From assembly GCF_003054265.1 (NCBI RefSeq), contig NZ_QBKT01000009.1:1-64000 (forward strand): a DNA stretch of 64,000 nucleotides, given 5' to 3'. The position numbers and the translations under genes were made by a program. The notes under the pieces are model-generated. The model was not told where the DNA came from. It saw only the letters and a program-made list of their open reading frames with translations, and searched no databases. Below are positions 37,662-53,114 of this stretch, in pieces. Source of the DNA: Kordia periserrulae. Lineage in GTDB: Bacteria > Bacteroidota > Bacteroidia > Flavobacteriales > Flavobacteriaceae. Every line of letters begins with the position of its first letter. Position 1 is the first letter of the stretch.

Positions 37662-38559
37662 GAAGAATCACACGTTTCTCAGTATCAAATTCAAAGCGAA
37701 TATTCATAGGTTCTGTAACAGCTTTCAAGGCTTTTTCTACATCATCATGCTGAAAACCACCTGTAAAAAGTTGTTCACTGTTAATGTTTTCAGTCGCAAT
37801 GCTAACATCAAATTGACGTTCCAATTCAGCCAATACTTCTTGTAGTGGAACTGCTGAAAACGTACTGATGTTTTCTGTCCAATTTGGTTTAAAATCACTA
37901 GACTTTCGTTCAACAAGTTGGTTGTTTACAATAACAAATTGATCACCAGGCGCTAATATGTTTTGGTGCGTTTTTGTGATGACTTTTACCGAACCTTCGT
38001 AGCATGTAACTTCAAAATAATTGGCGCGTTTTTTCACATTGAATTGCGTTCCCAACACTCGAATGGTATCATTTTGCGCAATCACATCAAAGGTTTTTCC
38101 TTTGGCAACTTTAAAATACGCTTCTCCAAGTAAATTCACGGTTCTGTCATCATTCCAGTTATTTTCATCGTACGAAAGTGACGATTTAGCGTTGAGGACA
38201 ATTTCAGAAGCATCAGGCAAGGTAATGTTGGTTTTTTCGCTAGCCACAGTCGTGATGGTTGTAAGCGAATCGTTCATGAAAAACATGTACAATCCAATAA
38301 AAATGATAAATACAGCCGCTACTTTTAGCAATGGCATCCACACTTTTGTAAGACTTCTTTTTTGCGTTTGCGCGACCAATTTTTTCGCTTTAAACGTTTC
38401 AAAATCATCAACCGTTTCAAAATGCGAGGCTTTAAAGTTTTGGGCATTTTCTATGATGGACTGATAATATTCAAAATCGTCACGCTGTTCAAAATCGCGC
38501 AATTCGGCTTCTGAAAGCTCGCCATTCAGCCATTTTTGTATCAAATTATCGTTGTCCAT
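37645..38559 (-). CDS. FecR-type anti-sigma factor
   Basis: 304 aa. The N-terminal cytoplasmic part (DNDNLIQKWLNGELSEAELRDFEQ) is followed by one membrane helix (~90-112), a FecR beta-domain (VTCYEGSVKVITKTHQNILAPGDQF) and a C-terminal DUF4974-type STN-like domain (FSAVPLQEVLAELERQFDV). It transmits the state of the TonB receptor to the ECF sigma factor encoded 48 bp upstream. The order sigma-FecR-receptor is the standard Bacteroidota arrangement. Confidence 0.93.
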   Translation of the reverse strand: MDNDNLIQKWLNGELSEAELRDFEQRDDFEYYQSIIENAQNFKASHFETVDDFETFKAKKLVAQTQKRSLTKVWMPLLKVAAVFIIFIGLYMFFMNDSLTTITTVASEKTNITLPDASEIVLNAKSSLSYDENNWNDDRTVNLLGEAYFKVAKGKTFDVIAQNDTIRVLGTQFNVKKRANYFEVTCYEGSVKVITKTHQNILAPGDQFVIVNNQLVERKSSDFKPNWTENISTFSAVPLQEVLAELERQFDVSIATENINSEQLFTGGFQHDDVEKALKAVTEPMNIRFEFDTEKRVILHENNQ

Positions 38560-38606
38560 TCGTTTCGTATTTTTGTATATAACAACTATAGGTTTAAAAT
38601 CCCTGA

Positions 38607-39131
38607 TTATTTTATGGAAAATCCTTCCAACTGCTCTTTTAATATTGTAAAAGCTTTGTGAACCCTGTATTCTACTACCTTTACCGTTACGTCCAACAGT
38701 TCTGCAATTTCTTTATGCTTTTTATTTTCAGCTTTGCTCAGCAAAAAAGCAACACGATATTCTTCTTTCATGTTTGCTAAAACTGCATTGTATTTTTCCA
38801 GAAATTCTGCTTCTTGCATTATAAATTCTGGACTGACATTCGTATGTGTTTTGGTTGTTGCTTTTTGATAGTTGAGTTTTACTTTTTCGTGTTTTAAATG
38901 ATTTAACACCATATTATTGGCAACGGTAAACAGAAACGATTTTGCTTTTGCGGGCGAAACAGTATCACAATTTTTCCAAAGTTTTAAAAAAGCTTCTTGG
39001 GTAGTATCATTCGGATTGCAGTTACTTCCGTACTTATAATATAAAAAATCGTGTATGCTTTTTGAAAGTTTTCGATAGAGACTCTCAAAAATACGTTCTT
39101 CGCAAACAGTTGTTTCTAGTTCTTTTTCCAC
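38607..39131 (-). CDS. FecI-type ECF RNA polymerase sigma factor
   Basis: 174 aa. Region 2 (DTTQEAFLKLWKN, AKSFLFTVANNMVLNHLKH) and region 4 (HKEIAELLDVTVKVVEYRVHKAF) are clear. First gene of the sigma-FecR-receptor operon. It is divergent from the lipoprotein gene at 39244, which might be a target. Confidence 0.93.
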   Translation of the reverse strand: MEKELETTVCEERIFESLYRKLSKSIHDFLYYKYGSNCNPNDTTQEAFLKLWKNCDTVSPAKAKSFLFTVANNMVLNHLKHEKVKLNYQKATTKTHTNVSPEFIMQEAEFLEKYNAVLANMKEEYRVAFLLSKAENKKHKEIAELLDVTVKVVEYRVHKAFTILKEQLEGFSIK

Positions 39132-39243
39132 AAAAAATTAGTATTGAAATCAAGATAAGTAAAATTTTTTTAAAAAAAGTCAGGGATTTTGAATTTACGA
39201 TTGTTGTATAGGAAAGAACGAAAAATAAAATCCCAAAATAATT

Positions 39244-41022
39244 ATGAAAACACTCACACAACTTTTAGCAACGGCGCTTCTTTGTACACTTGCGTTTACC
39301 TCGTGTAGAACGGAAGAAACGGAAATTATTGAACCGCCACAAGAACAAACGTTGGAAATCAATTCGCCAGTAAAATCGTTAATGCAACGCACCGCAACGA
39401 ACGATGGTTCTTTAGATAATATTATTGACAATGCCAACTGTGTCACTATTCAATTGCCTGTAACGGTAGTGGTAAATGGATTGCAAATTACGGTAGATTC
39501 TGAAGATGATTTTCAAACGATTGAAGATATTTTTGAAGAATTTGACGACGACGGTGACGAATTAATCATTGAATTTCCAATCACGATTATTTTGTCAGAT
39601 TTCAGCGAAATTGTCATTAATAATGCTACTGAATTGGCAACATTTACAGACAATTGTACAGGCGAAAATGAAGTCGATGACGATATTGAATGTTTGGACT
39701 TTAACTATCCGATTGTGGCTTCTTTCTTTAACACCAATAATGAATTGCTGGAAACAATTTCCATCATGAACGATGCACAAATGTATGAGTTCATCGATGA
39801 TATTGATGAAAATGACATCATTACAGTTCAATTTCCAATTAGCGTTACCACGTATGACGGCGAAACGATTACCATCAATAATTTTGCAGAATTAGAAAAT
39901 GTAATCAATACCTATGATGATGCCTGTGATGAAGACGATGACAACGATTATAACGATGACGATTGTGACAACTGTACTAACGACCAATTGACTTCGGTAT
40001 TAAGCGAATGTTCTAATTGGATGGTGGATAAACTAGAGCGAAATGACAATGATTTGGAAGACACCTATGTAGGCTATAATTTCAATTTTGGAACCGATGG
40101 AAGTATTCAGATAACTTCTGGAGGCGGAAACTTTACAGGAACGTGGCAATCGTCAGGAACCGGCAATAATATTTCGGTAACGATTACAATTCCTGATTTG
40201 CCAGATTTTAACGCTACTTGGAATCTTCACGAAATAGATCAAGAAGACAATGAAACTAAAGTTGATTTGCGATTAGGCGATGACCGTCTGCGATTTGAAA
40301 GCGATTGTTCATCCTCAGGAAACAATGGAAATGTAGACGATACAGCTTTGGTAAACTCCTTAACTACGGGCGATTGGTACATCACGTACTATTTTGATGA
40401 TACGGACGAAACGGCAGACTACACAGATTATGTATTTAACTTCGCTTCTGACGGTTCGGCAACAGCCAACTTAATGGGAACTATTACCAATGGTTTTTGG
40501 AATACTTCGGCAGGCGATGAAACAGCTTTGGAATTGAACTTAAATTTCGGCACCACCATTCCACTTGATGAATTGGCTGAGGATTGGGACGTGCTGGAAG
40601 TCACCAACGACATCATCCGATTAAAAGATGTGAGCGGCGGCGATGGAGATATTGATTATTTAACTTTTGAAAGAAATCCTTCTGGCGGAAGCGGCAATAA
40701 CTTAAATGCTATTCTGGAAACAGGCACATGGATTGTAGACTCATACACTGATGATGGAGTAGATGAAACCGCAGATTATAATGGTTATCAATTAACTTTT
40801 ATGAACAACGGAACTGTGCAAGCTAGCAACGGAACCACCATCAACGGAACATGGGATGTGCAAAATGCTGGAAACACTTTACTATTAAACTTTGAAGCCA
40901 TTCCTTTTGATGAATTCAACGATGATTGGGATGTAATTTCTGTTTCTGAAACGCAAGTAATTCTGCAAGATGTCAGCGGTGGAGGCGGTGGAACCGATGT
41001 ATTAAAACTATCTAAACTATAA
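39244..41022 (+). CDS. Repeat lipoprotein with acidic and lipocalin-like modules
   Basis: 592 aa; lipobox LAFTSC (C21). Two N-terminal repeats (~65-140 and ~150-225) share FPITIILSDFSEIVINN versus FPISVTTYDGETITINN. An Asp-rich linker with Cys (CDEDDDNDYNDDDCDNC) follows, then three copies of a ~105-aa module. Copies 2 and 3 share DETADY, GTINGTW-like strands, DDWDV and DVSGG; copy 1 is more diverged. The modules look like lipocalin-type beta barrels. Probably surface exposed and acidic; ligand unknown. It is followed 14 bp later by a gene encoding one copy of the same module. Confidence 0.72.
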   Translation: MKTLTQLLATALLCTLAFTSCRTEETEIIEPPQEQTLEINSPVKSLMQRTATNDGSLDNIIDNANCVTIQLPVTVVVNGLQITVDSEDDFQTIEDIFEEFDDDGDELIIEFPITIILSDFSEIVINNATELATFTDNCTGENEVDDDIECLDFNYPIVASFFNTNNELLETISIMNDAQMYEFIDDIDENDIITVQFPISVTTYDGETITINNFAELENVINTYDDACDEDDDNDYNDDDCDNCTNDQLTSVLSECSNWMVDKLERNDNDLEDTYVGYNFNFGTDGSIQITSGGGNFTGTWQSSGTGNNISVTITIPDLPDFNATWNLHEIDQEDNETKVDLRLGDDRLRFESDCSSSGNNGNVDDTALVNSLTTGDWYITYYFDDTDETADYTDYVFNFASDGSATANLMGTITNGFWNTSAGDETALELNLNFGTTIPLDELAEDWDVLEVTNDIIRLKDVSGGDGDIDYLTFERNPSGGSGNNLNAILETGTWIVDSYTDDGVDETADYNGYQLTFMNNGTVQASNGTTINGTWDVQNAGNTLLLNFEAIPFDEFNDDWDVISVSETQVILQDVSGGGGGTDVLKLSKL

Positions 41023-41036
41023 AAACACGTATTATT

Positions 41037-41528
41037 ATGAAAACTATGAAAACACGATTTAATTTACTCTTTTTGGTGATGTTAAGCTTCTCTTTAATGT
41101 CAACCACTTGTGAAACGGACGATGATGTCGTTGTAGATAATTCACAAACCATTGCAGAAATCACGGATATTGCAGAAACCAGTACTTGGAGAATTACAAG
41201 TTATGTAGATTCTGGACAAGATGAAACCAACGATTTTAACAATTACAACTTCACTTTTGCAGCCAACGGCACGGTTACCGCAAGTAACGGAACTGACCAA
41301 GTGCAAGGAACATGGTCTGTAACCGATGACAGTAATAGCAATGATGATAGCAATTCGGATGACGATATTGATTTCAACATTTCGTTTAACGTACCAACCA
41401 CCAGCAATTTCTTCGATTTGAATGACGATTGGGATATTATAAGTTATTCCAATACGACCATAAGTCTGCAAGACATTAGTGGCGGAAACGGAGGAACAGA
41501 CACCTTAGTTTTCCAGAGAAACAATTGA
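41037..41528 (+). CDS. Single-module lipoprotein related to the 39244 protein
   Basis: 163 aa; signal peptide ending at lipobox LMSTTC. The mature part is one copy of the module repeated in the upstream protein: WRITSYVDSGQDETNDF, FAANGTVTASNGT, GTWSV, LNDDWDII, LQDISGGNGGTDTLVF. Same operon. The pair faces the ECF sigma locus and may be its regulon or surface partner. Confidence 0.72.
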   Translation: MKTMKTRFNLLFLVMLSFSLMSTTCETDDDVVVDNSQTIAEITDIAETSTWRITSYVDSGQDETNDFNNYNFTFAANGTVTASNGTDQVQGTWSVTDDSNSNDDSNSDDDIDFNISFNVPTTSNFFDLNDDWDIISYSNTTISLQDISGGNGGTDTLVFQRNN

Positions 41529-41589: not shown

Positions 41590-41766
41590 ATGATGTAAAT
41601 TTCCTAAATTCTCTACAATGAACTTTTATTAAGTTTAGAATGGCTATTTAATAAAATCATTTTATGAAAACTCGTCGTGTGTCTAACGTATACTGAGTTT
41701 ATGGCACTTCAATATTTTGTAATTTCAAAGAATACTTTTAAATATTTTTGAAGAGAAAAAGCCATA

Positions 41767-41802
41767 AAAAAAGCAAGCTATTTATGTGTAGCTTGCTTTT
41801 TT
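41767..41802. terminator. Bidirectional terminator-like hairpin before repeat R1
   Basis: AAAAAAGCAAGCTA (41767-41780) and TAGCTTGCTTTTTT (41789-41802), 14-bp stem. It lies 10 bp before the first copy of the island repeat, the position taken by other hairpins in front of copies R2-R4. Confidence 0.8.
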
Positions 41803-41812
41803 GGTTTTATTG

Positions 41813-41864
41813 TGACCCCGAACCTTCAAAGTTCGAACTTTTTGGTGGAGGATTTGCGGGAGAT
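41813..41864. repeat. Island boundary repeat R1 (52 bp)
   Basis: Starts TGACCCCGAACC and ends GCGGGAGAT, with a central 14-bp palindrome AAAGTTCGAACTTT and GGTGGAGGATTT after it. Nearly identical copies lie at 45418, 47432 and 51948. Read on the minus strand it contains ATCCTCCACCA, like the 3' end of a tRNA or tmRNA gene with CCA, and ends GGTTCGGGGTCAC. It is the left edge of the accessory island. Confidence 0.85.
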
Positions 41865-42008
41865 AAGTCTATTTGTAATAGAAAATTTTGAATTACTTAC
41901 TATGCCTCTAGTTCGATTTAAATAATCGCTTTTACGGTAAACCTCATTTTTAACAGTAAGTATTTTATTAATTTTATTCAACTGTAAATCAATGAAATAA
42001 TTATTCAA

Positions 42009-45000
42009 ATGGATTCTAAAGATATCATTACACTGGTAGTTGCACTAATTGGAGGAATAGCAACTATAGTAGCTGCAATAATCACAACAAGAAAAAAAGA
42101 TAAGGACAATAAAAAGCTTAGTGAAGATAATCAAAAACATGAGGATAATACTGATGAAATAGAAACAGCTAGAGAGAAAGCAAAAGAATTAACTGATTTT
42201 AAGGAGTATCAAACTAATATTTCAATTAATGGTCAAGATTTCTTTGGTAGAAAAAAAGACTTACATGAGGTAAAAAGTTTATTTCTAAATTCAAAAAAAC
42301 GATTAATTACAATAACTGGAACTGGTGGTATTGGAAAAACAAGATTTTCAAAAGAAATTGGTTTAGATTTACAAAAAAACTATTCAGGGGGTGTTTGGTT
42401 TGTGGACTTAACCGAGACAACAACAATTAGTGGTATAGCTTATGAGATATTCGAAGTATTTGATAGACGTCATTCAAGCAATCAAACTACCGATACTCAC
42501 GCAGTAATTGAACTTTTAAATCATAGAGGTAAAACATTATTAATTCTTGATAATTTTGAACAAATCGTTGAACTTTCTAACCAATCAATCACATATTGGT
42601 TAGATAAGTTACCAGATGTAGATTTTCTTGTTACTTCAAGAACTCCTTTAAAAATAGCTATAGAACAACAATTTCAATTATCACCTCTTGAGATTCCTGA
42701 CAAGAATGAAACTGACTATGAAAAGATTGTTGAAAATAATTCTGTTAAATTATTTACTTGTATATCAAAGAGAGTATATCCAAACTTTACACTTCAAGAG
42801 AATGATATTAACACATTGAATTCTATAGTTTCATATTTAGAGGGGTTACCTCTTGCAATTGTTATAGTAGCATCTAGAATAAAATATAGTAATCTTGAAA
42901 ATATCGAAAAAGAGTTAAGTAATATTCTAAATTTATCACAAAGAAATCGAGATACTCATGAAAAGCATCAAACACTCTATGATACTGTTCTTTGGAGCTT
43001 CAATTTATTAAAAGAAGTTGAAAAAGAGGTATTCTTAAAACTAAAAGTTTTCAAAGATGGTTTCACGTTAAATTCTATAAAAAAAATAGTATTAAAAAAC
43101 GATGATAGATTAATTGACATATTGGATTCATTAATTGAAAATAGTTTGATTTATACTGATCGTACAGAGCAAGAGTTGAGATATAAAATTTTAATTCCAA
43201 TACAAGAATTTATAAATAAAAAGTCTGAAGTTTATTTTCAAAAAAAAATATTAAATGCTTTGGAAAAAGAGTATTGCAATTTCTTTTATAATTTGAGTAT
43301 AAAGCACAGAAGTACTCTAAATACTAGAAGTAGTATTGATGCTTTAAGTTTTGAAATGGAAAACATTCTTCATACGCAGGACTTATACATAAAGAACTTT
43401 GAATATGAGAAAGCCGCAGAAACAATTTTAATTTTTGTGGAAGTCCTTACGCTTAAAGGTCCCACATCATTAAGAATACCTAGATTAAAAAAATCGTATG
43501 ATACTTTAAGTGATAAACATACTGAAACTTCAGGGAAACTAAAGTTAGAATTGATAAAAACGCACCTTTCTAGGGGTGAATGGTCACTAGCTGAATCATT
43601 AATTTATAAACTACTAGAAAACAATCAATACCTAGAAAATATATTTGAAAAAGCAAAAGTATTTATGCTCCTGAGTACAATAGCCAGTAATTATGGCTTT
43701 TTGAAACGTTCTATTTATTTTCGAATAAAAGCTAGTGAAATCTTCAAAATGACAGAATCATCTGTTCAGTTGGCAGAATGTTATATAGGATTGGGAGCAT
43801 CGAATGAGAGATTAAAAAACTATGAAGATGCAATGAATTATTTTTCTCTTGCTGAAGAAATAGCTAAATCAGAAAACAATCAAGTATTATCAATAAAAAT
43901 TCATAATCGAAAAGGACTAGCTTTTTGGCATCATGGAAAACCAAGTTTGGGTTTAAAGGAAATTAATGCAGCACTTAGATTAAGTAATCTAATGGGAAAT
44001 AACCTACTTTTTGCTGCTAATACCACAAATAAAGGACTGATCCTTTCAGATCTTAACAGGATAGATGAATCGCTAGAATATTTTGAAATAGCAGAAACAT
44101 TTCATAGAGAATTAAGAACTCTACATTGGGCTTCGGTAAATTATGGTGGCTGGGGAAGATCATTAATTTTAAAAAATAATAATTTACAAACTAGAAAAGC
44201 TATAGATTATATAAAAAACTCAGAAAAAATTGCTCGTGAAGTATATTATCCTGAAGATTTGGCTATGAGTCTAGGAGACTTAGGGCGGGCGTATTTACAA
44301 TTAGAAGAGTGGAGAAATGCTTATGAAGCTGTAAGTGAGGCTATTTATCTTGAACGAAAAATGGGAGCAACAGATGAGCATAGACATTTTTGTAATCTTG
44401 TAGTTTTCGGACAATGTTGTTTTATATTGGATAAAAAAATTGAACTATGGGAAACTATAACAAGAGCTAATGATTTAATAAATGTCATTGGAATAGATGA
44501 AAATTATCCAATAAGAAAAGCTGCAATGGACTTTTTAAAATTAAAAGAGCTTTCATTAAAATCAAAATTTCCAATCTTATCAGAGACTCCCATAGTTCTC
44601 AAAAATCTTAACTTATCTAGTAAGTTTTTCTCTAACTTACCAAATCTAATTAAAAAGGTTTCTAAAAATGAAATGTATGAATACCCATGGTTTTTAATTG
44701 AGGACAGTTTGAAAGAAAGAAATATTAAAAGCATTAAGCTATTTGGGTATGGCAGTTTAATTAATAAAGCTTCTGCTTCAAAAACAATAAATACTAAGTC
44801 AGTTAATGAATATACTTTGGCTAGTGGTTTAGGTTTTAAAAGACTATTAAATTATAATATGCCTGATGAAGTTAGAAAACGTTCTTTATATAATAATCCA
44901 ATCGGAGAATTATACAACGGGCTATTTAATGTTGAATATACAGGCTCAGTTAATGACCTATTAAATGGTGTTATGATAGATGTCACAGTTGATGAATTTG

Positions 45001-45290
45001 AAAATTTACGAAAAAGAGAAATAGGTTATGATTTATTGCCTATAGTCTGTATTCCTCATGATAAAGAAACTGATGAATATGTCTTAGCTTATACTTTGAG
45101 TTGTTCTGATCGTAAGTGGGGAGAGAGAAACCTCCTAAATAAAAAATTATTACCTCACAAGACTTATGTTGATTTATGTAAAGAAGGAGCTAAAAAAATT
45201 TCTAAAGAATTTTATGAAGAATTTCTTCGAACTTCGTATTTAGCAGATGGAAAAACTACATTACAAGATTATAAATTTCCAATTAGGTAA
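42009..45290 (+). CDS. Membrane-anchored STAND ATPase with TPR-like repeats and gamma-glutamylcyclotransferase-like C terminus
   Basis: 1093 aa. Residues ~5-28 form one membrane helix (LVVALIGGIATIVAAIITT) followed by a charged linker. The NB-ARC/AAA domain has P-loop TGTGGIGKTR (~103-110), Walker B TLLILDNFEQ (~176), sensor VTSRTPL and GLPLA (~278). Residues ~450-850 are helical repeats of TPR type (AECYIGLGASNERLKNYEDAM). The last ~180 residues resemble gamma-glutamylcyclotransferases: FGYGSLINKAS (~911) for the substrate loop and LRKREIGYDL with the candidate catalytic Glu. STAND proteins with C-terminal sensing repeats are common phage sensors (Avs-like). Here the enzymatic domain would be the effector. 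Visibly more AT-rich than the core genes. Flanked by repeats R1 and R2. Confidence 0.8.
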   Translation: MDSKDIITLVVALIGGIATIVAAIITTRKKDKDNKKLSEDNQKHEDNTDEIETAREKAKELTDFKEYQTNISINGQDFFGRKKDLHEVKSLFLNSKKRLITITGTGGIGKTRFSKEIGLDLQKNYSGGVWFVDLTETTTISGIAYEIFEVFDRRHSSNQTTDTHAVIELLNHRGKTLLILDNFEQIVELSNQSITYWLDKLPDVDFLVTSRTPLKIAIEQQFQLSPLEIPDKNETDYEKIVENNSVKLFTCISKRVYPNFTLQENDINTLNSIVSYLEGLPLAIVIVASRIKYSNLENIEKELSNILNLSQRNRDTHEKHQTLYDTVLWSFNLLKEVEKEVFLKLKVFKDGFTLNSIKKIVLKNDDRLIDILDSLIENSLIYTDRTEQELRYKILIPIQEFINKKSEVYFQKKILNALEKEYCNFFYNLSIKHRSTLNTRSSIDALSFEMENILHTQDLYIKNFEYEKAAETILIFVEVLTLKGPTSLRIPRLKKSYDTLSDKHTETSGKLKLELIKTHLSRGEWSLAESLIYKLLENNQYLENIFEKAKVFMLLSTIASNYGFLKRSIYFRIKASEIFKMTESSVQLAECYIGLGASNERLKNYEDAMNYFSLAEEIAKSENNQVLSIKIHNRKGLAFWHHGKPSLGLKEINAALRLSNLMGNNLLFAANTTNKGLILSDLNRIDESLEYFEIAETFHRELRTLHWASVNYGGWGRSLILKNNNLQTRKAIDYIKNSEKIAREVYYPEDLAMSLGDLGRAYLQLEEWRNAYEAVSEAIYLERKMGATDEHRHFCNLVVFGQCCFILDKKIELWETITRANDLINVIGIDENYPIRKAAMDFLKLKELSLKSKFPILSETPIVLKNLNLSSKFFSNLPNLIKKVSKNEMYEYPWFLIEDSLKERNIKSIKLFGYGSLINKASASKTINTKSVNEYTLASGLGFKRLLNYNMPDEVRKRSLYNNPIGELYNGLFNVEYTGSVNDLLNGVMIDVTVDEFENLRKREIGYDLLPIVCIPHDKETDEYVLAYTLSCSDRKWGERNLLNKKLLPHKTYVDLCKEGAKKISKEFYEEFLRTSYLADGKTTLQDYKFPIR

Positions 45291-45354
45291 AAGTATAGTT
45301 CTTTAAAATCTAACTTATTAATTATCTGTTTTCAAGAGTTTTAGATGAATGAAA

Positions 45355-45476
45355 TCCGCTCGGGTATAAAACATAAAAACTTGTAATCCTCTAAATTACA
45401 AGTTTTTACAATTCTAGTGACCCCAAGCTTTCAAAGTTCGAACTTTTTGGTGGAGGATTTGCGGGAGATTGGGTTG
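45355..45476. repeat. Island repeat R2: terminator module plus 52-bp core
   Basis: 45355-45417 begins TCCGCTCGGGTATAAAA and contains hairpin AAAAACTTGTAAT/ATTACAAGTTTTT (45375-45407). It is a diverged copy of the sequence downstream of tRNA-Arg (52978-53040). The 52-bp core follows at 45418-45469, sharing TGGGTTG beyond it with R3. It ends the STAND cassette and also serves as its terminator. Confidence 0.85.
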
Positions 45477-45588
45477 TTTTTCTTGAATATTACTGCTTTT
45501 TAAAAATTTCACCTCTTTGTAAGAGATTTTGTATTTTTATAAAAATAATTTCTGTTCTAAAGTAAACTGATAAATATTAAAATAAAAT

Positions 45589-47336
45589 ATGGGACAATTC
45601 AGAGATATATCAATTAAAAATGTAATTGAAGACTTAAATCAAAGTTATTTTTACCTGATATTCAAAGAGAATATGTTTGGTTGCGTAAAGCAAAAGAAAA
45701 GAAAATTGAACAACTTTTCGATTCCATTTTAAGAGGTTATCCAATTGGCTCATTTCTTTTTTGGAAACTTAAGAAAGACGATATTGAAACAAATAAAGAC
45801 GCAAAAGAAGATTCTGAAAAATTAAACTTTCAATTATACAAGTTCATTGAAAATTATGATCAAAGAAAAACACACAACGAAAAAGTAAACATAGAACAAA
45901 TAAATTCCAATGATTTATCCATAGTGCTTGACGGTCAACAAAGATTAACTTCACTTTATATTGGACTTAAAGGAACAAGAACTCTAAAAAAGCCCAAAGC
46001 ATGGTGGGATAATCCTAATGCATTTGAGGAAAAACAACTTTTCTTGAATTTAAGATACAAACCAAATGAAGAAAGTCCTGATGATAATTTTAATTTTGAT
46101 TTTCTTCCCAAAAACTCAGTTCCAAAAATTGATGATAATAATTATTGGTTTAAGGTAGGTAACATTCTTGAATTAGGAAGCATAGTTAGCTATGCAAGAG
46201 AAAATAATCTTTCGGACTACGAAGCGGAAATACTTGAAAAAATGAAAGATGCTTTTTGCACTAAAAGTTTAATTTCATATTTTGAGGAAACTGAAAAAAA
46301 TCTAGATAAAGTTTTAAAAATTTTTATTCGTGTAAATAGCGGGGGAACACAATTATCATACTCTGACCTTTTAATGTCAATTTTGACTGCAAATTTCTCA
46401 ACTGACATACGGGATTTGATGAATAAATTTGTTGATTCGCTAAAGGAGCAAGGCTTTGGAGTAATGGGAAGAGATCAAGTACTGAAAACTTGCTTACTAT
46501 TGACTGAAAGCAATCACATTTTCAAACTAAAAAGTTTCAGTAAAAGTAATATCAATAAGATTGAAGATAACTGGGAAGAAATTACTGAAACAATTTTCAA
46601 AACAATAAAATTATTAAAAGAATTTGGTTATACAAACCAACTTTCTTCGGCTTACATTTTATCAGCTATTGCATATTACATTTTCAAAAAGAAAAATATA
46701 GATCAAGAAGACAAAACTGAAATACTCAAATTTGTGCGAAACGCACAAATCACAAGTTATTTTACGACTTCTTTAGACGGTAAATTAGAGGTTGTTGCTA
46801 AAATCATAAGAACAGCTGAGAATTTTTATATGGTCAATAATAAATTAACTGTAAGTAAAGTACAACCTTTGAAAATATCAAGTGATGATATTGATCGAAT
46901 GATGAACTTTCAATATGGAAATCCAGCAATTCTCCCAATTTTGCAAATATTATATCCAAATTTAGATTACAAAAATTCGACTTTTCACATAGATCATATT
47001 TATCCTAAATCAAAATTTAAAGTAAATAATGTAGAATTGAACGAGAACTACCTCACAGAAGCAAATTTTCTTTACAATCTTCAACTTCTTCAAGGAGAAG
47101 AAAATTTAGCTAAAAAAGCAAAAGACCCAGAATTATGGTTGAATGAGCATTTTTCAAATAATAAAGAGCAGATTATAGCCTATAAACAAAGGAATTATAT
47201 AGACCAAAACTTTGAACTTAATTGGACTGTTATAAAGGAGTTTGACGAATATCGAACCGAAAGAATAAAATCTAAATTGAAGGAAATATTGTTGACAGAT
47301 AGAAAAGCAGAAGTGTCTAATAGTTCTAACTCTTAA
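45589..47336 (+). pseudogene. DUF262/DUF1524 (GmrSD-type) restriction-like protein, frameshifted
   Basis: The natural start is ATG 45589 (GQFRDISIKNVIEDLNQSYF). One T is missing from a run (5 T at 45648-45652; 6 would restore the frame). Downstream, the family sequence PDIQREYVWLRKAKEKKIEQLF continues in the other frame to 47336 (about 582 aa if repaired). DUF262 catalytic motif DGQQRLTSLYIGL is intact. The C-terminal HNH-like HIDHIYPKSK and NLQLLQGEENLAKK match DUF1524. Such proteins are nucleases that restrict modified or phage DNA. A downstream TTG (45681) could give a 551-aa truncated protein. This could be a pseudogene, a phase-variable gene or a sequencing error. Confidence 0.75.
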
Positions 47337-47368
47337 ATATTTAAAAATCATATTATTATATAAAACTA

Positions 47369-47490
47369 TCCGCTCGGGTACAAAAATAAAAAACCTGTAA
47401 TCTTTTAAATTACAGGTTTTTACAGTTTTTGTGACCCCGAACCTTCAAAGTTCGAACTTTTTGGTGGAGGATTTGAGGGAGATTGGGTTG
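47369..47490. repeat. Island repeat R3: terminator module plus 52-bp core
   Basis: 47369-47431 differs at only about four positions from the region downstream of tRNA-Arg (52978-53040), including hairpin AAAAACCTGTAAT/ATTACAGGTTTTT (47389-47421). The 52-bp core follows at 47432-47483 and shares TGGGTTG with R2. Both carry GTGACC at the junction. Confidence 0.88.
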
Positions 47491-47507
47491 TTTTTTGAGA
47501 AGTTCCT

Positions 47508-48902
47508 TTAATTTTTATTAAACTCAGTTAATTTTTCATTTACTTCATTTCTACTTTTAACATCTAGCTTTTTATAGATATTGCTTACATGAAATTTTAT
47601 AGTATTTGTTGAAACAAACAGCTTTTCAGCTATTTCACGATTTGTCATTCGTTCATGAATACATTTTAGTACTTTTATCTCTTGCAAAGTTAATGTAGTA
47701 TTACTTAATTCGTTTTCTTCAAGTAATATATAGAACGAATCAATACTTGTTCCTTTTTGATTCTTTGACAATAGCAATTGTAACTCAGAAATTTGTTTTT
47801 TATGTTCTTTATTTAAAATATCTAAACGATATGATATTGCATACGTAAATATTAACATATCAATCATACTAGCTAATTTTAAAAAAAACGTTTGCCCATT
47901 ATTAGGAATCAATCCAAAATCATAAGAAAATAAAAAGTGAAAACCAAAAGTTATAAGGATTGTATAGCCTAAAATATAAAAACGTGCAAATTTTACTTCC
48001 CCCATATAAACAACACATACAATCCACGTAATTGAAAAACTAGACATGGCTACAGTATCTGCCATAATGTAAAAAATAAAATCACCTGTAACTATATGAC
48101 TAATTTCTAATAAACTCATTAGTGTCACTAGTCCTATTGCATATCTTTTGAACTTAGGCACATAGTCTTTAAAATTTAAGAAAGTAAATGAAAAAAGAAA
48201 CATGGTTATCTCGGTTAGTAAGTGAGAAATACCCTCGATATCTATGATTGTGTTTATTGGCAGAATCAAATTCATAGTGCCATCATGATACAAAATAGCA
48301 ACAGTATATGAACATAAAAATATTAGGTAATACAGGTATACTTTTTCATTAAATTTTATGTAGAAAAATAAGTTGCATATTAAAATAGCCAATAAAAAAC
48401 CATAATATGTTCCAGTAAAAAGGTTATATAAAAAAGTATGCTCAAAATATTCTTCAGTCGTATATATCCGTAGAGGGAAATTAGCCTCTTTGCAAAAAAA
48501 AACCTTTAAAAAAATTTCTGTTGTATTATTTTCTATGTCAACCGAAAAATTTGGAAAACGATTCTGTTTATTTTGCTGTAGATTATAATTATTTTTTATC
48601 TCGTTTACATATAAAAGACTATTGCCCTTCCTTTTATAAATAAGAATTTCTTCAATATTATGAGTAGGTATTTCAACGATAATTTTATTTACATCAATAC
48701 TTTTAATTATTACTTTAAACCAATAATTACCATTTTTTAAACCCAAACTTTCTGATTGGGGTATTTCTTGAAATTTAGATTGAAGAACAGAACATTTTAA
48801 AGTGTCATTATCAAAAGATAAAAATTTGATTTGGCAGTTAATTTTTTTTGCCATTGAAATAGAACAATAAAACAATAGTAAAAGTAAGCTGATTTTTTTC
48901 AT
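47508..48902 (-). CDS. 7TMR-DISM membrane sensor with LuxR-type DNA-binding domain
   Basis: 464 aa. Signal peptide, an extracellular 7TMR-DISM type-2 beta domain (~25-160, ENNTTEIFLKVF), seven membrane helices (~165-370), a short coiled linker, and a C-terminal LuxR/GerE helix-turn-helix (TLQEIKVLKCIHERMTNREIAEKL, STNTIKFHVSNIYKKLDVKSR). One-component sensor coupling an outside signal to transcription. Divergent from the LytTR gene at 49109; both probably regulate the DUF2589 genes in the same cassette. Confidence 0.85.
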   Translation of the reverse strand: MKKISLLLLLFYCSISMAKKINCQIKFLSFDNDTLKCSVLQSKFQEIPQSESLGLKNGNYWFKVIIKSIDVNKIIVEIPTHNIEEILIYKRKGNSLLYVNEIKNNYNLQQNKQNRFPNFSVDIENNTTEIFLKVFFCKEANFPLRIYTTEEYFEHTFLYNLFTGTYYGFLLAILICNLFFYIKFNEKVYLYYLIFLCSYTVAILYHDGTMNLILPINTIIDIEGISHLLTEITMFLFSFTFLNFKDYVPKFKRYAIGLVTLMSLLEISHIVTGDFIFYIMADTVAMSSFSITWIVCVVYMGEVKFARFYILGYTILITFGFHFLFSYDFGLIPNNGQTFFLKLASMIDMLIFTYAISYRLDILNKEHKKQISELQLLLSKNQKGTSIDSFYILLEENELSNTTLTLQEIKVLKCIHERMTNREIAEKLFVSTNTIKFHVSNIYKKLDVKSRNEVNEKLTEFNKN

Positions 48903-49108
48903 GATAAAAAAAGATTGATAGTTTTTCTTGTTAAAATAAAGCTACAAACCTTCTCTATAAAACAAGTATAATTACCTGTTTTGCTACTCTACAGGTAGTA
49001 AAAACTATACTTATTTTGTGCAATGTGCTAGAAAGTCTATTCTATTACAATCATATGTTTTGTAGTGATCTGTATAATTTTATAGTCTAATACACAAAGA
49101 GTGTCATT

Positions 49109-49441
49109 ATGAAATATATTGACTATTTAATTATTAAAAAACAACAGGCACTGTGTAAAGTACTAATAGCCAACATAATATACATTGAGGTAGAAGATAA
49201 TTATAGTACTATACACACAATTTCCAACAAGTATTTGGTACAGAAATCTTTAGTAAAATTGAAAGATCTTCTGAAGCACAAAAACTTTGAGCAAATTCAT
49301 AGAAAATATTTAGTCAACTTTGATAAAGTACAAAAAATTGACTTATATGAAAACTTAGTATATCTAAATCAAAACTATGTAGTTAGTTTAAGCGAACGTT
49401 ATAAAAAGCAATTGATTAGTAAGTTTGATGTCATTAAATAA
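49109..49441 (+). CDS. Stand-alone LytTR DNA-binding protein
   Basis: 110 aa, essentially one LytTR domain: NIIYIEVEDNYSTIHTISNKYLV, FEQIHRKYLVNFDKVQKI, VVSLSERYKKQL. No receiver or membrane domain, so it is not a classical response regulator. It lies between the divergent LuxR-type sensor and the DUF2589 genes, which are likely targets. Confidence 0.88.
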   Translation: MKYIDYLIIKKQQALCKVLIANIIYIEVEDNYSTIHTISNKYLVQKSLVKLKDLLKHKNFEQIHRKYLVNFDKVQKIDLYENLVYLNQNYVVSLSERYKKQLISKFDVIK

Positions 49442-49660
49442 TACTTTTTTTACGCTTGCATAGTAAATCAAATACGTTCGTCAACCCAAAAACAACACTT
49501 ATCCATTATCTCTCATACTTCACTAATAATTTAAAGAATTTTACTCCAAGTTTAAGAAGAATATATCATATAAAAGACGTCTATTTTACTTCAACCAAAC
49601 TTAGGGCGTGAATCCGAAAAGCCAATTATTAAATAGAGTAGGAATTTAAAAATTAAAAAA

Positions 49661-50326
49661 ATGGCAGATTCTAAAGCAATAGTATCAATGGCTCAGCAGT
49701 TTACAGGCTTACCCATTGACAACCTTATTGGAGCACCACTTATGGCAGCTGCAACAGCTAACAATGCAATGGCATTAACCCAAACACGATTTTTATTAGA
49801 TACTTGTTTTGAAGCAAAAAATGATTCAGATCAGTTAATTCCAATAATGATAAAGATGGAATTAGTAAGAGGCGTTATTGGACAAAAAACAGATAATAAT
49901 GATAACTCAGTTACACCAATTATTGAAGAAGTCAAAACTACCTTTAATTTACCTTTATTAACCATTGTGCCTCTAAACTCTTTGGCTGTAGATGATGTAT
50001 ATGTGAAGTTTCACATGGAAGTTAAATCAAGCTATTCTGAAGATACTAGTAAAGAAACTAGAGATCAAATGAAAGCATCTGGTTCGTTTGAGGCTAAAAT
50101 GGGTTGGGGACCACTTAGTGCAACTGTGAGAGGAAATGTTTCAAAGGAAAGCTCTTCTGTCTCAAAGGAAGATACACATTATTCTAAAGAAAACTCAGCA
50201 GAATATGATATAAGTGTTCATGCTAAACAAATCCCTTTACCTGATGGTGTAAAAACAATAATTAATGCATTTACACTCGCTATTGAACCAATTCAATTAG
50301 GCAAAGATGTAAAACAAGATAATTAA
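49661..50326 (+). CDS. DUF2589 family protein A
   Basis: 221 aa, no signal peptide or membrane helix. It has the DUF2589 pattern of a short helical start (AIVSMAQQFTGLPIDNLIGAPLMAAATA), then LPLLTIVPLNSLAVDDVYVKFHMEVKSS, and a Ser/Lys-rich middle. Ends in INAFTLAIEPI. Function unknown. An AAATAGAGTAGG motif 30 bp before the start recurs 31 bp before the last gene of the group (51259). Confidence 0.72.
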   Translation: MADSKAIVSMAQQFTGLPIDNLIGAPLMAAATANNAMALTQTRFLLDTCFEAKNDSDQLIPIMIKMELVRGVIGQKTDNNDNSVTPIIEEVKTTFNLPLLTIVPLNSLAVDDVYVKFHMEVKSSYSEDTSKETRDQMKASGSFEAKMGWGPLSATVRGNVSKESSSVSKEDTHYSKENSAEYDISVHAKQIPLPDGVKTIINAFTLAIEPIQLGKDVKQDN

Positions 50327-50393
50327 TAGCTAATCAATCTGTTTGGTCGTAATAATCAATTACATGACCGAACAGATTTAATATTTACATAAA

Positions 50394-50597
50394 ATGAAAA
50401 ATAAAATAAATTGTCCTGTATGTGAAAAAGGGGAAATTCACTTTGATCTTAATTTTTTAGTGACAGGAACTAGTTTTTCCTGTTCTTACTCAGATTGCTT
50501 GACAACTATTAAGCTCCCTAAAGATAGCCAGCACTCTGTCAAATCTGTACTCGAAGGATTAAAAGAGATTAGTTTACAAAAAAAACAATTAATATGA
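50394..50597 (+). CDS. Small zinc-ribbon protein of the DUF2589 cluster
   Basis: 67 aa with C7/C10 (NCPVCEKG) and C30/C35 (FSCSYSDC), a likely zinc knuckle, and a helical C terminus (SVLEGLKEISLQKKQ). Its stop overlaps the next start (ATGA), so translation is coupled. Function unknown. Confidence 0.65.
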   Translation: MKNKINCPVCEKGEIHFDLNFLVTGTSFSCSYSDCLTTIKLPKDSQHSVKSVLEGLKEISLQKKQLI

Positions 50598-51154
50598 AAT
50601 TAGATAGCTTAGTGAATTCCATACAAGCAGCTGCAATAGCTGCTAATGAAGCATTACATGATAGAAATAAAAACCTTATCAATTTATATTTTGATAAAAC
50701 AGATGAATTAACTGAAAGAGAAGTTAAAAATAAAATCTCTAAAAATAATAACCTTGCACCTGAAGATGTTGAAAAAATAATGTCTTCCCTAGCATCAAGT
50801 TTTCTTGATAAAATCAAAGGAAATTCAGAAAAGTTAATTCCTAAAATGGTTACGGTTCAATTTCCCCGTGAAACAAATAAAGGACCTGTTGTACATGATG
50901 TACATGTACCGCTAATTACATTAGTCCCTTTAAGTTTGACAGAAGTATCTAACATAAAATTTAAAACAGATATTGAAATTAAAATAATAGATGATGAACT
51001 AAACCTTTCTTTCCCTGCTAAAGATAATAAGGAAACCTCAGATAAAACTTTAACCAATATAGAAATCAATATAGATAAATCTCTTCCTCCTGAAGGACTA
51101 CGAAAACTTATCGAAGGTTATGAAAGAGCGCTAAGAGCTCAAATACCTGGATAA
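50594..51154 (+). CDS. DUF2589-like protein B
   Basis: 186 aa. Similar plan to the 49661 product: an N-terminal Ala-rich helix (LVNSIQAAAIAANEALHD), then VPLITLVPLSLTEVSNIKFKTDIEIKI and a final helix (LPPEGLRKLIEGYERALRA). The paired ITLVPL/TIVPLNSL strands support homology to protein A. Translationally coupled to the zinc-ribbon gene. Confidence 0.62.
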   Translation: MKLDSLVNSIQAAAIAANEALHDRNKNLINLYFDKTDELTEREVKNKISKNNNLAPEDVEKIMSSLASSFLDKIKGNSEKLIPKMVTVQFPRETNKGPVVHDVHVPLITLVPLSLTEVSNIKFKTDIEIKIIDDELNLSFPAKDNKETSDKTLTNIEINIDKSLPPEGLRKLIEGYERALRAQIPG

Positions 51155-51258
51155 GTAAAGACTAATTTTAGTTCACTAAATGTTGTAGTTATAAAATCAG
51201 GACACTATCCAAAAAACCTAATTACAAAATAGAGTAGAAAAATTTAAATTTTAACAAG

Positions 51259-51723
51259 ATGATATATAAACAACTAGATATTAACTCAGTAAAAAATAAG
51301 AGCTCAAAACTTGTTTCTTTTTTAAATCACAAATTAAAAAGCTTAGCAACTCATTCAATTAATATAATTTTTTTAGGAGAAACGCATAATAATCAAATAG
51401 ATCAAACGGTAACAAGAGAACTTTTAATAAATCCTCCAGTAGTAACTCCCAACGATACAAGAATAATTTTAGAAAGAGGATTGAATCAGGTCTATAATGT
51501 ATTTAGCGCTTTGACTGATCAAAGAACTGAACCTCATTTGAACCTAAATCGGCAAGAAAGAAGTGATTTAATAGCAAAAATGGTTTTGACAGCAATCAAG
51601 CAAGATGATAAAAAAACAATTTATATTGTTTGTGGTGAAGAACATTCAAAAGAAATTTATGAAAGTTTAGATAAACAAAAAATTGAAAACTCAATTTTTA
51701 TTTCAAAACCATCCGTAGTCTAA
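51259..51723 (+). CDS. ChaN/TIKI-like (GExH) fold protein
   Basis: 154 aa. NIIFLGETHNNQID at ~36 and IVCGEEHSKEIYE near ~130 fit the two GExH-type motifs of the ChaN/TraB/TIKI superfamily (haem-binding or metal-dependent hydrolase-like). It is much shorter than typical members, so it is a minimal or divergent form. No signal peptide. The shared AAATAGAGTAGA motif (51228) suggests it belongs with the DUF2589 genes. Confidence 0.5.
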   Translation: MIYKQLDINSVKNKSSKLVSFLNHKLKSLATHSINIIFLGETHNNQIDQTVTRELLINPPVVTPNDTRIILERGLNQVYNVFSALTDQRTEPHLNLNRQERSDLIAKMVLTAIKQDDKKTIYIVCGEEHSKEIYESLDKQKIENSIFISKPSVV

Positions 51724-51907
51724 ATTAAAAATGTAAATTAGAGGATGACTTGTCAGAATAGTAAAGCATTTTCACTGTAATCGCGACGAGATTATTACTC
51801 CTTGTTACTTTACAATTCACTACTACGAATAAGAAACTACGAACTTTCACTATTATTCTTTTGTTTTCATTACAAATCTTGAACGTTGTTCAGCTTTGCT
51901 CTAAAAA

Positions 51908-51940
51908 CAAGAAACCACGTCAATTTGACGTGGTTTCTTG
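51908..51940. terminator. Terminator-like hairpin before repeat R4
   Basis: CAAGAAACCACGTCAA (51908-51923) and its exact complement (51925-51940) form a very stable stem. The following bases (cttaattt) are T-rich, and the minus-strand side also has a T run. It sits 7 bp before R4. Confidence 0.75.
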
Positions 51941-51947
51941 CTTAATT

Positions 51948-51999
51948 TGGCCCCGAACCTTCAACGTTCGAACTTATTGGTGGAGGATTTTAAGAGGAT
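51948..51999. repeat. Island repeat R4 (52-bp core, diverged)
   Basis: TGGCCCCGAACC, then a mutated palindrome AACGTTCGAACTTA and GGTGGAGGATTT, ending AGAGGAT. Same length as R1-R3 with about ten differences, so it is an older or decayed copy. The flanking gap 51724-52150 has no gene. Confidence 0.8.
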
Positions 52000-52150
52000 A
52001 AATGCCTTTCTTTTAGATTATGACTACTTTTAAAGGTGATCATAGGTTTTTATAAGAAAAAATTATTAATTTTAAAGAAGTAAAAGAAATTTCTATTGTA
52101 CTTACTTTAGCAACAATTTATTTATTACGTTGACTACAACAATATTTTAA

Positions 52151-52945
52151 TCGTACATATTAAGCCTGACTACACTTATTGTATTCACAGTTTGGTTTCA
52201 CTTTGGTGAAAAAGTTCATTTAAATCCTATTCTTAAAATAATTTCAACAGCGTTGATTTCACTTGGCATATACAGATTTATTGCTTACATATTTTTACTC
52301 TTACTCAAAAATATTCGATTTATTAGAAAATTTTTCTTGGATCCAAAATATCTAGAGGGAACTTGGGTTGGATTCTATATTGGATCAAATAATCAAGTAA
52401 AGTTTATAGTTGAAAGATTTGAACAAGATTTGGAAATATTGAGAATTCGTGGAACCGCTTACAATGATCAAAAAAGATTTCATACTTCTTAGATTTCTTT
52501 TCCCGCAAATGTGGATGTTAAAAAAGGGGAGTTAACATATATGTATGAGCTAAAGGGAATAAACGAAGTTTCGAATGGGACAGGAATAGTATTTTTTAAT
52601 TTTCATCGTAAAAATAAAAACTCAGCCCCCAAATTGATTAAAGGTTTTTCCGCTGATCTTCACAATAATGAAATAAGAACAAAGTCTATTGAATATAAAT
52701 TATCTGATTCTACTGATTATATAGATTCTGATGCTATAGAAAAAGCGGTTGAATTTTATCAAGAAATAGCTCATACCTTTAATCATCTAAAGCGGCTAAT
52801 AATGTGCATAGTTAATTACTTGCTGATTTTCCAGCGAAAAAATCAGCAAAAATTTTCAATAGATTATGTTATTTTATTATTTTTTGCTAAATACAACCGA
52901 AACAAACCACATGCTAGAACGTTACTATTTAAATCTAACCTTTAA
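52151..52945 (+). pseudogene. Two-TM, beta-rich effector-like protein, degenerate
   Basis: One reading frame runs from 52151 to 52945, broken only by TAG at 52490-52492 (after HTS; one base from TGG, Trp). There is no good start: the frame is closed by TAA at 52148, so the 5' end is also damaged. It encodes two hydrophobic helices (LTTLIVFTVWF; IYRFIAYIFLLLL), then KYLEGTWVGFYIG, FERFEQ-type strands and PKLIKGFSADLH. The plan of two membrane helices plus a beta-rich soluble domain recalls CBASS effectors of the Cap15 type; the link is weak. No cyclase gene is nearby. Confidence 0.5.
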
Positions 52946-52977
52946 GCTTCTAATAATTAATTCCTTAGAAGACACTG

Positions 52978-53040
52978 TCCGTTCGGGTATAAAAACAAAA
53001 AACCTGTAATCTTTTAAATTACAGGTTTTTACAATTTTTG
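52978..53040 (-). terminator. tRNA-Arg terminator and module shared with R2/R3
   Basis: Directly downstream of tRNA-Arg on the minus strand. Hairpin AAAAACCTGTAAT/ATTACAGGTTTTT (~52998-53030) with T tracts on both sides, bounded by TCCGTTCGGGTATAAAA. Near-identical copies occur in R3 and R2. Confidence 0.85.
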
Positions 53041-53114
53041 TGACCTCGGCAGGATTCAAACCTGCAACCTCTTGAGCCGTAATCAAGTGCACTATTCAGT
53101 TATGCTACGAGGCC
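53041..53114 (-). tRNA. tRNA-Arg (anticodon ACG)
   Basis: Minus-strand cloverleaf: acceptor GGCCTCG/CGAGGTC (one G-U), anticodon stem CTTGA/TCAAG with loop TTACGGC (anticodon ACG), T arm GCAGG-TTTGAAT-CCTGC. 74 nt, CCA not encoded. Its 3' end GGTCAC is the junction where R2 and R3 diverge, marking it as the likely insertion target of the island. Confidence 0.94.

Follow-up and report, generated by a model that had tools for sequence, protein, structure and literature searches.

This study concerns an array of gene-bearing DNA units located beside a tRNA-Arg(ACG) gene in a 64,000-nucleotide stretch (the window) of contig C9 from a Kordia genome of 4.73 Mb in 38 contigs. Four copies of a repeat, herein called Y, mark the left ends of the units. 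From left to right, the array comprises a hairpin, Y1 and unit 1, Y2 and unit 2, Y3 and unit 3, a decayed mini-element, Y4 and unit 4, and the tRNA gene. The comparisons described below suggest that the units were probably acquired as separate pieces of DNA and stacked between tRNA-Arg and a terminator, with a recombinase presumably acting in trans. The features of the array are as follows.

41763..41811 (-): terminator hairpin of the GCAAGCTA type at the array's outer edge, left of Y1 (fold z -5.4); related hairpins lie ahead of Y or directly 3' of tRNA-Arg elsewhere
41812..41906 (+): Y1 (R1), left end of unit 1, core GTGACC (profile score 80.7)
41812..45416 (+): unit 1, limits taken from Y to the next Y; STAND NTPase with NB-ARC and TPR (Pfam NB-ARC 9.9e-12), open reading frame (ORF) 42009-45290 (+)
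45354..45416: unit 1 right end, a 63-bp module plus hairpin resembling the tRNA-Arg 3' flank (52/63)
45417..45508 (+): Y2 (R2) (profile score 73.1)
45417..47430 (+): unit 2; GmrSD_N protein and HEC-05 defence candidate, ORF 45681-47336 (+) (PADLOC HEC-05 1.3e-228; Pfam 3.5e-23)
47368..47430: unit 2 right end, 63-bp module plus hairpin (58/63 to the tRNA-Arg 3' flank)
47431..47521 (+): Y3 (R3) (profile score 77.8)
47431..51776 (+): unit 3, full extent (Pfam)
47508-48902 (-): unit 3, 7TMR-DISM-LuxR (Pfam)
49109-49441 (+): unit 3, LytTR (Pfam)
49661-50326 (+): unit 3, first DUF2589 (Pfam)
50394-50597 (+): unit 3, small ORF
50594-51154 (+): unit 3, second DUF2589 (Pfam)
51259-51723 (+): unit 3, 154-aa ORF
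51777..51946 (+): decayed gene-less mini-element of the ~167-bp type, hairpin GAAACCACGTCAATTTGACGTGGTTTC (z -8.9), aligned with tRNA-Arg(acg) copies of genomes G001, G002 and G006
51947..52037 (+): Y4 (R4), the most decayed copy (profile score 59.6; 44/52 to R3)
51947..53039 (+): unit 4, short ORFs 52253-52492 and 52511-52945; the first has weak PADLOC matches to a two-transmembrane (2TM) effector (E 0.01 and 0.042)
52977..53039: unit 4 right end, 63-bp module at the expected place of the tRNA terminator (hairpin z -4.7)
53040..53114 (-): tRNA-Arg(ACG), the target; plus-strand 3' end GTGACCTCG (ARAGORN; Rfam tRNA 58.9 bits)

All four copies of a 52-bp element described in an earlier, sequence-only reading of this DNA are present, although each starts one base before the position given there: 41812 (R1), 45417 (R2), 47431 (R3) and 51947 (R4) rather than 41813, 45418, 47432 and 51948. 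R1 and R2 match R3 at 51/52 and 48/52 positions, and besides the four Y copies no site on either strand of the window reaches 30/52. The palindrome AAAGTTCGAACTTT, attributed to every copy, is perfect in R1 through R3 but carries two mismatches in R4. Five sites with at most two mismatches to this palindrome occur in the window versus 1.1 expected, and none of 100 shuffles gave five. Folding bore out the strong hairpin reported ahead of each copy. Such a hairpin directly precedes each Y copy and the tRNA end (z -4.7 to -8.9), and shuffled sequences folded equally well once in 200 at R2 and never at the other four sites. The 63 bp ahead of R2 and R3 do resemble the tRNA-Arg 3' flank as that reading noted, but with 58 of 63 positions identical R3 has five differences, not about four. 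The 63 bp ahead of R1 and R4 show no match (23/63 and 25/63). The units end in a terminator followed by the core GTGACC, in keeping with the observation that the shared block ends at this tRNA 3' end.

The payloads proposed for the units were in part revised. Unit 1 had been called a STAND-cyclotransferase, and its STAND character stands, but no cyclotransferase domain is among the Pfam matches at E<=1. The DUF262/HNH protein assigned to unit 2 corresponds to GmrSD_N, with no separate HNH match. The start of this gene apparently lies in another frame, and it is possibly a broken copy. Pfam recovers the proposed DUF2589 set with regulators in unit 3, for which no right-end terminator hairpin of its own was identified. 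The decayed two-TM protein of unit 4 has the weak 2TM effector matches listed above. A match to the DUF805b RNA motif (49603-49644, E 0.00027, under the gathering score) is located just 5' of the first DUF2589 gene.

Comparison within Kordia supports the insertion of these units as discrete DNA. We searched 104 Y matches (overlapping stretches counted twice) by blast against regional stretches, with pairwise follow-up. A TOTE-type primase-helicase unit (Pfam AEP-TOTE 9.8e-85) that extends from Y to tRNA-Arg(tcg) in G005 is 97.8% identical over 4779 bp to one that extends from Y to tRNA-Arg(tct) in G002. This alignment spans from the Y core into the tRNA, the left flanks differ, and the chromosome 5' of the tcg tRNA is 83.9% identical between the two genomes. 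Likewise, a 6.93-kb unit located between Y and tRNA-Arg(tcg) in G002 lies between two Y copies in G006 (93.2% over 6951 bp), and the alignment begins 2 bp before Y and extends ~9 bp past the unit, into the tRNA (G002) or the second Y (G006). A third unit of 7.6 kb, judged by eye to carry a sugar-use operon, runs from Y to the next Y in both G008 and G001 (86.8% over 7670 bp), and in G009 is found directly at tRNA-Arg(tcg) without Y (84.6% over 7523 bp). The right-end hairpin family of all three relocated units is unchanged between both places. Outside Kordia, G105 has a 7.9-kb unit with hipA (Pfam HipA_C 2.2e-43) between tRNA-Val (GTGGGC) and a Y copy that starts with GTGGGC. As in tRNA-targeted islands, the units end exactly at the tRNA 3' end and the tRNA is intact.

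The genome that contains the window has another tRNA-Arg gene, tcg, which is an empty site when compared with a four-unit, 26.7-kb stack at tRNA-Arg(tcg) of G010. On the 3' side of this gene, the sequence is 91.3% (597 bp) and 84.0% (1631 bp) identical to the stack's outer flank; these matches end 75 and 68 bp short of the cores, with a loose alignment continuing to the core. The 5' sides are 90.2% identical over 1083 bp, and no Y was found within the 20 kb examined at the empty site. The tRNA-Arg(acg) gene is present in 11/11 Kordia genomes. On the 5' side of this gene, G001 can be aligned with each of the other nine loci, but among the 3' flanks of the ten loci, examined over up to 9 kb, only one of the 45 pairs shares a stretch of at least 300 bp. 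This common stretch of G005 and G007 (474 bp, 66%) is inverted and lies more than 7 kb from the tRNA. The window's acg locus was compared by ORF map and by a search with the whole array as DNA query. In the 10 other Kordia genomes (E<=1e-20), repeat ends and the mini-element stretch were matched but no cargo, in a search that scored 27 of 165-308 first-look candidates per genome and thus gives a lower bound rather than an exhaustive count. Among the species compared, there is no identical block fixed at this locus. The exact unit ends in differing contexts, together with the empty and occupied sites, uphold the earlier proposal of serial accretion at the tRNA 3' end without an integrase.

Insertion between a tRNA gene and its terminator predicts that the same hairpin families should be found both ahead of Y and directly 3' of tRNA-Arg. 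Such families include AAGCCTTACTA (G009 tcg), CCACGTCAA (G006 acg), GCAAGCTA (G007 tcg) and CCTGTAAT (window and G001 acg, G002, G005). With regard to a displaced copy of the tRNA end, which is expected at the far border of tRNA-targeted islands, Y carries 6-11 bp of that end. In addition, gene-less mini-elements occur in two sizes, 105 bp and 166-170 bp, with four copies aligned for each and that of the window among the longer ones. They start with 17 bp from the end of tRNA-Arg and finish with a terminator, and three of them lie in a row at tRNA-Arg(acg) of G002. Of 14 mini-element starts outside tRNAs, a count that omits the tRNA copy of a G006 island, a tRNA remnant in G003 and duplicate stretches, nine equal the resident tRNA at all 17 bases.

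No integrase was found within the units, as the sequence-only reading had held for the window. Profile searches with PF00589 and PF00239 of 11 Kordia genomes (E<=1e-4) gave no match inside 28 Kordia units, large serine recombinases included; three units from other genera lay outside this search. These units therefore differ from tRNA-targeted islands that contain an integrase gene. Other elements at the same tRNA genes do encode integrases. An island of 13.5 kb in the tRNA-Arg(tct) stack of G006 encodes a 422-aa integrase and, by eye, type I restriction enzymes, and its tRNA copy is 43 bp long, compared with the 6-11 bp in Y. At tRNA-Arg(acg) of G010, an adjoining prophage-like element (by eye) encodes a 392-aa integrase, and its far end was looked for but not found. 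Given the longer tRNA copy of the former and the missing far end of the latter, naming either enzyme as the recombinase is an inference.

Two other recombinases were considered as the agent and set aside. A 428-aa IntI/XerA-like enzyme is whole in only 4/11 Kordia genomes and near Y in two, so this role was not concluded; C-terminal pieces occur in two more Kordia genomes, in one of them beside Y. This tyrosine recombinase of the XerA/integron-integrase type (L157:4871-6157 on G008 C12; L232:10810-12096 on G006 C176; L234; L235) has a ~150-aa N-terminal extension, and the ORFs after it in the four Kordia genomes mostly run in its direction. Its G008 copy exceeds the cut-off of NF040815 and scores 199 bits, below the cut-off, with TIGR02249. 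It may head a cassette array of its own. The second, a 404-aa integrase, was assigned by eye to prophage-like elements (L293, L294, L296). In G003 and G001 it lies beside a tRNA-Leu(caa) shortened to 78 nt, and Y is close by in G003 and G006.

We compared 31 hand-chosen units, each measured from core to next core in fetched stretches, of which 28 are from Kordia and from which a unit at G003 1.568-1.572 Mb was left out. They range from 0.98 to 16.7 kb (median 4.5 kb), although long ones may hide unrecognised cores, and hold up to seven ORFs of at least 90 aa on both strands. Ten units (20 proteins) were searched with PADLOC, and five had a match below 1e-10: HEC-05 in the window, the primase-helicase unit, a TmtA-like protein (G010), a SNF2-type helicase (G105) and AbiE (Aquimarina). 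The ten were partly picked for a defence-like look, so this share is no estimate, and the G105 match is common to many helicase families. A G210 unit, HipA-like by eye, reached 2.8e-9. In other units, Pfam identified DUF1611 with a protein bearing an alanine-racemase N-terminal domain, and a TPR-kinase that also has FlgO, secretion-tail and CarboxypepD domains; one unit contains an insertion-sequence transposase. Thus, the label 'defence-like' suits part of the cargo, which is mixed.

A 565-609-aa protein is encoded 3' of Y in G009, G001, G005 and G008 (L146:15199-16896, L147:1536-3365, L155:13216-14937 and L157:3057-4607). The gene is split into two ORFs in G008, and one small ORF separates it from Y in G005. 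Nothing exceeded the cut-off for this protein, whether two copies were searched in Pfam or one in NCBIfam.

In the model that these observations favour, a unit consists of a core (GTGACC, the last bases of the tRNA in reverse), a Y arm of ~60-98 bp, one or several payload genes, a right end that in most units has a terminator hairpin, and another core. A circular intermediate would be inserted by a trans-acting tyrosine recombinase. This enzyme could come, for example, from an island or prophage targeting these tRNA genes, such as those with the 422-aa (G006) and 392-aa (G010) integrases. The enzyme may recognise the tRNA acceptor end and the T-loop-like TTCGAAC in Y. Insertion would keep the tRNA intact, move the old flank outward behind the new Y, and leave the tRNA with the terminator of the newest unit. 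Of the possibilities raised earlier for the repeats (attachment (att) sites, decayed tRNA copies or a mobile cassette system), a plain decayed tRNA copy does not apply, as Y forms the units' left end.

Several observations weigh against stacking of separately acquired units. The stacks at G003 4.73-4.76 Mb and on G005 C34 have no intact tRNA in the stretches examined, and in G008 the tRNA lies 25 kb from the nearest Y. The 9-base Y core equals the adjacent tRNA core in some stacks only: it does so in G002 tcg, G002 tct and G001 tcg, partly in G010 tcg (2/4 Y), G001 acg (1/3) and G006 tct (1/2), and not in G005 tcg or the window. A second tRNA-Val is located 0.5 kb past Y in G105. At the outer edge of the window's array, homology of the neighbouring gene block ends about 260-290 bp before Y1, so this side need not be the former flank of the tRNA. 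Homologous and site-specific crossovers inside Y are indistinguishable because Y is conserved in all units. Finally, the searches tied no recombinase to Y.

Among known systems, we class these units as tRNA-targeted, integrase-less islands with accretion like that of cis-mobilizable elements (CIMEs). CIMEs are defined as elements that have lost integration and transfer genes (PMC5704250). A doubtful but possible alternative to trans-acting capture is that the units are CIMEs proper, namely decayed integrative elements that lost these genes, kept their att sites and are moved by an adjacent active element. The Kordia units likewise have att sites, here predicted from sequence, without integration genes, and are stacked beside active elements, as in that account; integrase islands occur within the same stacks (G006, with its 43-bp tRNA copy) and integrase pieces beside Y in G004. 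Moreover, the tandem islands at ssrA in Dehalococcoides (PMC3146451) number 16 with a serine-recombinase module and 15 without an integration module, with a repeat corresponding to the 20-bp gene end. Both sets are arranged serially at the 3' end of an RNA gene with border repeats and mixed cargo, and some of the islands lack integration genes. In contrast to those islands, the examined Kordia units are without such a recombinase, combine a shared core of 6-11 bp with a conserved Y arm and use several tRNA genes. Decay fits poorly with payloads that are mostly open frames in units of compact size (median 4.5 kb, n=31). Unlike CIMEs as defined above, the units share a common left arm and yielded no recombinase remnant in profile searches of 28 Kordia units with PF00589 and PF00239, which did not extend to transfer genes.

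We also tentatively entertain a dedicated cassette system. One family of trans-acting recombinases would use a bipartite site formed by the last bases of the tRNA and TTCGAAC in Y, and would file any Y-to-terminator payload behind tRNA-Arg, with parallel versions at tRNA-Leu, tRNA-Met and tRNA-Val. Such a system would be a tRNA-anchored counterpart of the integron, with mini-elements as empty cassettes. Clusters of attC sites lacking integron integrases (CALIN) are integron gene cassettes without an integrase, in which small payloads are arrayed between recombination repeats. The Kordia arrays share this arrangement and the absence of an integrase at hand, but their units differ in having one or several genes, encoded on either strand, in being anchored at a tRNA and in placing the repeat at the unit start. 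The 31 units are not single-gene cassettes in one orientation, and no integrase was found beside the array, as the window's contig has no PF00589 match. Tycheposons of Prochlorococcus are also tRNA-anchored cargo islands, but they carry a tyrosine recombinase, and none was found in the Kordia units. Our literature search found no description of these units, and we claim no absence in print beyond that search.

Homologous recombination after DNA uptake, in which cassettes with Y and a terminator-tRNA block would be swapped between loci via the repeats, seems unlikely. The presence of Y in all units and of the 63-bp right end in many is compatible with this explanation, and breakpoints inside Y would be irresolvable. 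However, the arms are short (~60-98 bp and 63 bp) and diverged, and the right ends belong to several different hairpin families. No Y was found at the empty site of the window's genome, so a first insertion would need another route. Very improbable is a dispersed intergenic repeat, of the repetitive extragenic palindromic or miniature inverted-repeat type (REP/MITE), with genes between copies by chance: hairpin-less, divergent Y copies are scattered across Kordia genomes and vary by genome, but for hairpin-preceded copies the idea is contradicted by whole multi-kb units kept from core to core with differing flanks and by the tie to tRNA ends.

The distribution of Y nevertheless shows that the repeats are dispersed beyond the array, which the sequence-only reading had named as a result that would count against it. 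This was borne out in part, as a Y profile gives nine matches in the window's genome at E<0.01, four of them in the array, and divergent hairpin-less copies occur across Kordia. A 140-bp query (hairpin plus Y) matched 17 of 60 genomes, namely all 11 Kordia and six others in which the match is weak and confined to the hairpin part; 14 first-look candidates were scored per genome, so these counts are lower bounds. A core pattern matched six of 397 family genomes, two of them Kordia, and one of the other four matches lies inside an ordinary gene. The pattern is strict and missed Kordia G009, which carries Y by profile. Beyond Kordia, the matches with names come from Aquimarina sp. RZ0 and from an uncultured Flavobacteriaceae bacterium. 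Four named loci were dropped from the later analysis as duplicates of unnamed ones.

Divergent Y copies without a hairpin, many with a CTAA start, are intergenic and scattered (G009, G003, G001, G002 and others; L105-L135). They form genome-specific versions, with neighbouring GAGCGAAGCGA-like repeats. Other divergent copies start with GTACC or GTAGC, and several of these lie 3' of hairpins that by eye resemble the flanks of tRNA-Leu(caa) (GTACTC) or tRNA-Met(cat) (GTAGCG) in the window's genome.

Other origins of Y were evaluated and rejected. A phage derivation gained no match in protein or distant DNA searches, and the 21-bp core has no exact match in viral contigs. Rfam-type matches at Y and the tRNA flank are chance-level leader families under their gathering scores only, which does not indicate a known RNA. 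Y copies can be read as a 32-codon frame, often with a common stop, that is open in 28/40 copies versus 0-14/40 in the other five frames, excluding 5/45 copies whose first codon is not GTG, TTG, ATG or GTA. Third positions are not clearly more variable, so a short coding sequence was not adopted, although a coding-like tail remains. The peptide gave nothing in Pfam at E<=1 and a weak PHROGs match (0.065) for one of three versions. A full-length gene ending in the Y peptide would be expected to give matches in long open frames, but among the matches listed with E<1e-6 none has a frame exceeding 108 aa.

Marine Kordia bacteria thus appear to accumulate packets of DNA end to end behind tRNA genes, some with virus-defence genes and some recurring behind different tRNA genes in other species. 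Their borders provide a rule for finding mobile units, including defence and toxin-antitoxin operons, that integrase or phage searches would not delimit, and a ready test of integrase-less DNA movement between species. Because the units are small and sharply ended, payloads of unknown role, the DUF2589 set among them, can now be put forward for testing.

To the left of the array, the genes at 35142-41528 form a block with relatives in five other Kordia genomes, and synteny breaks near R1. In G001, Y and the 609-aa gene are located on the other side of the related block.

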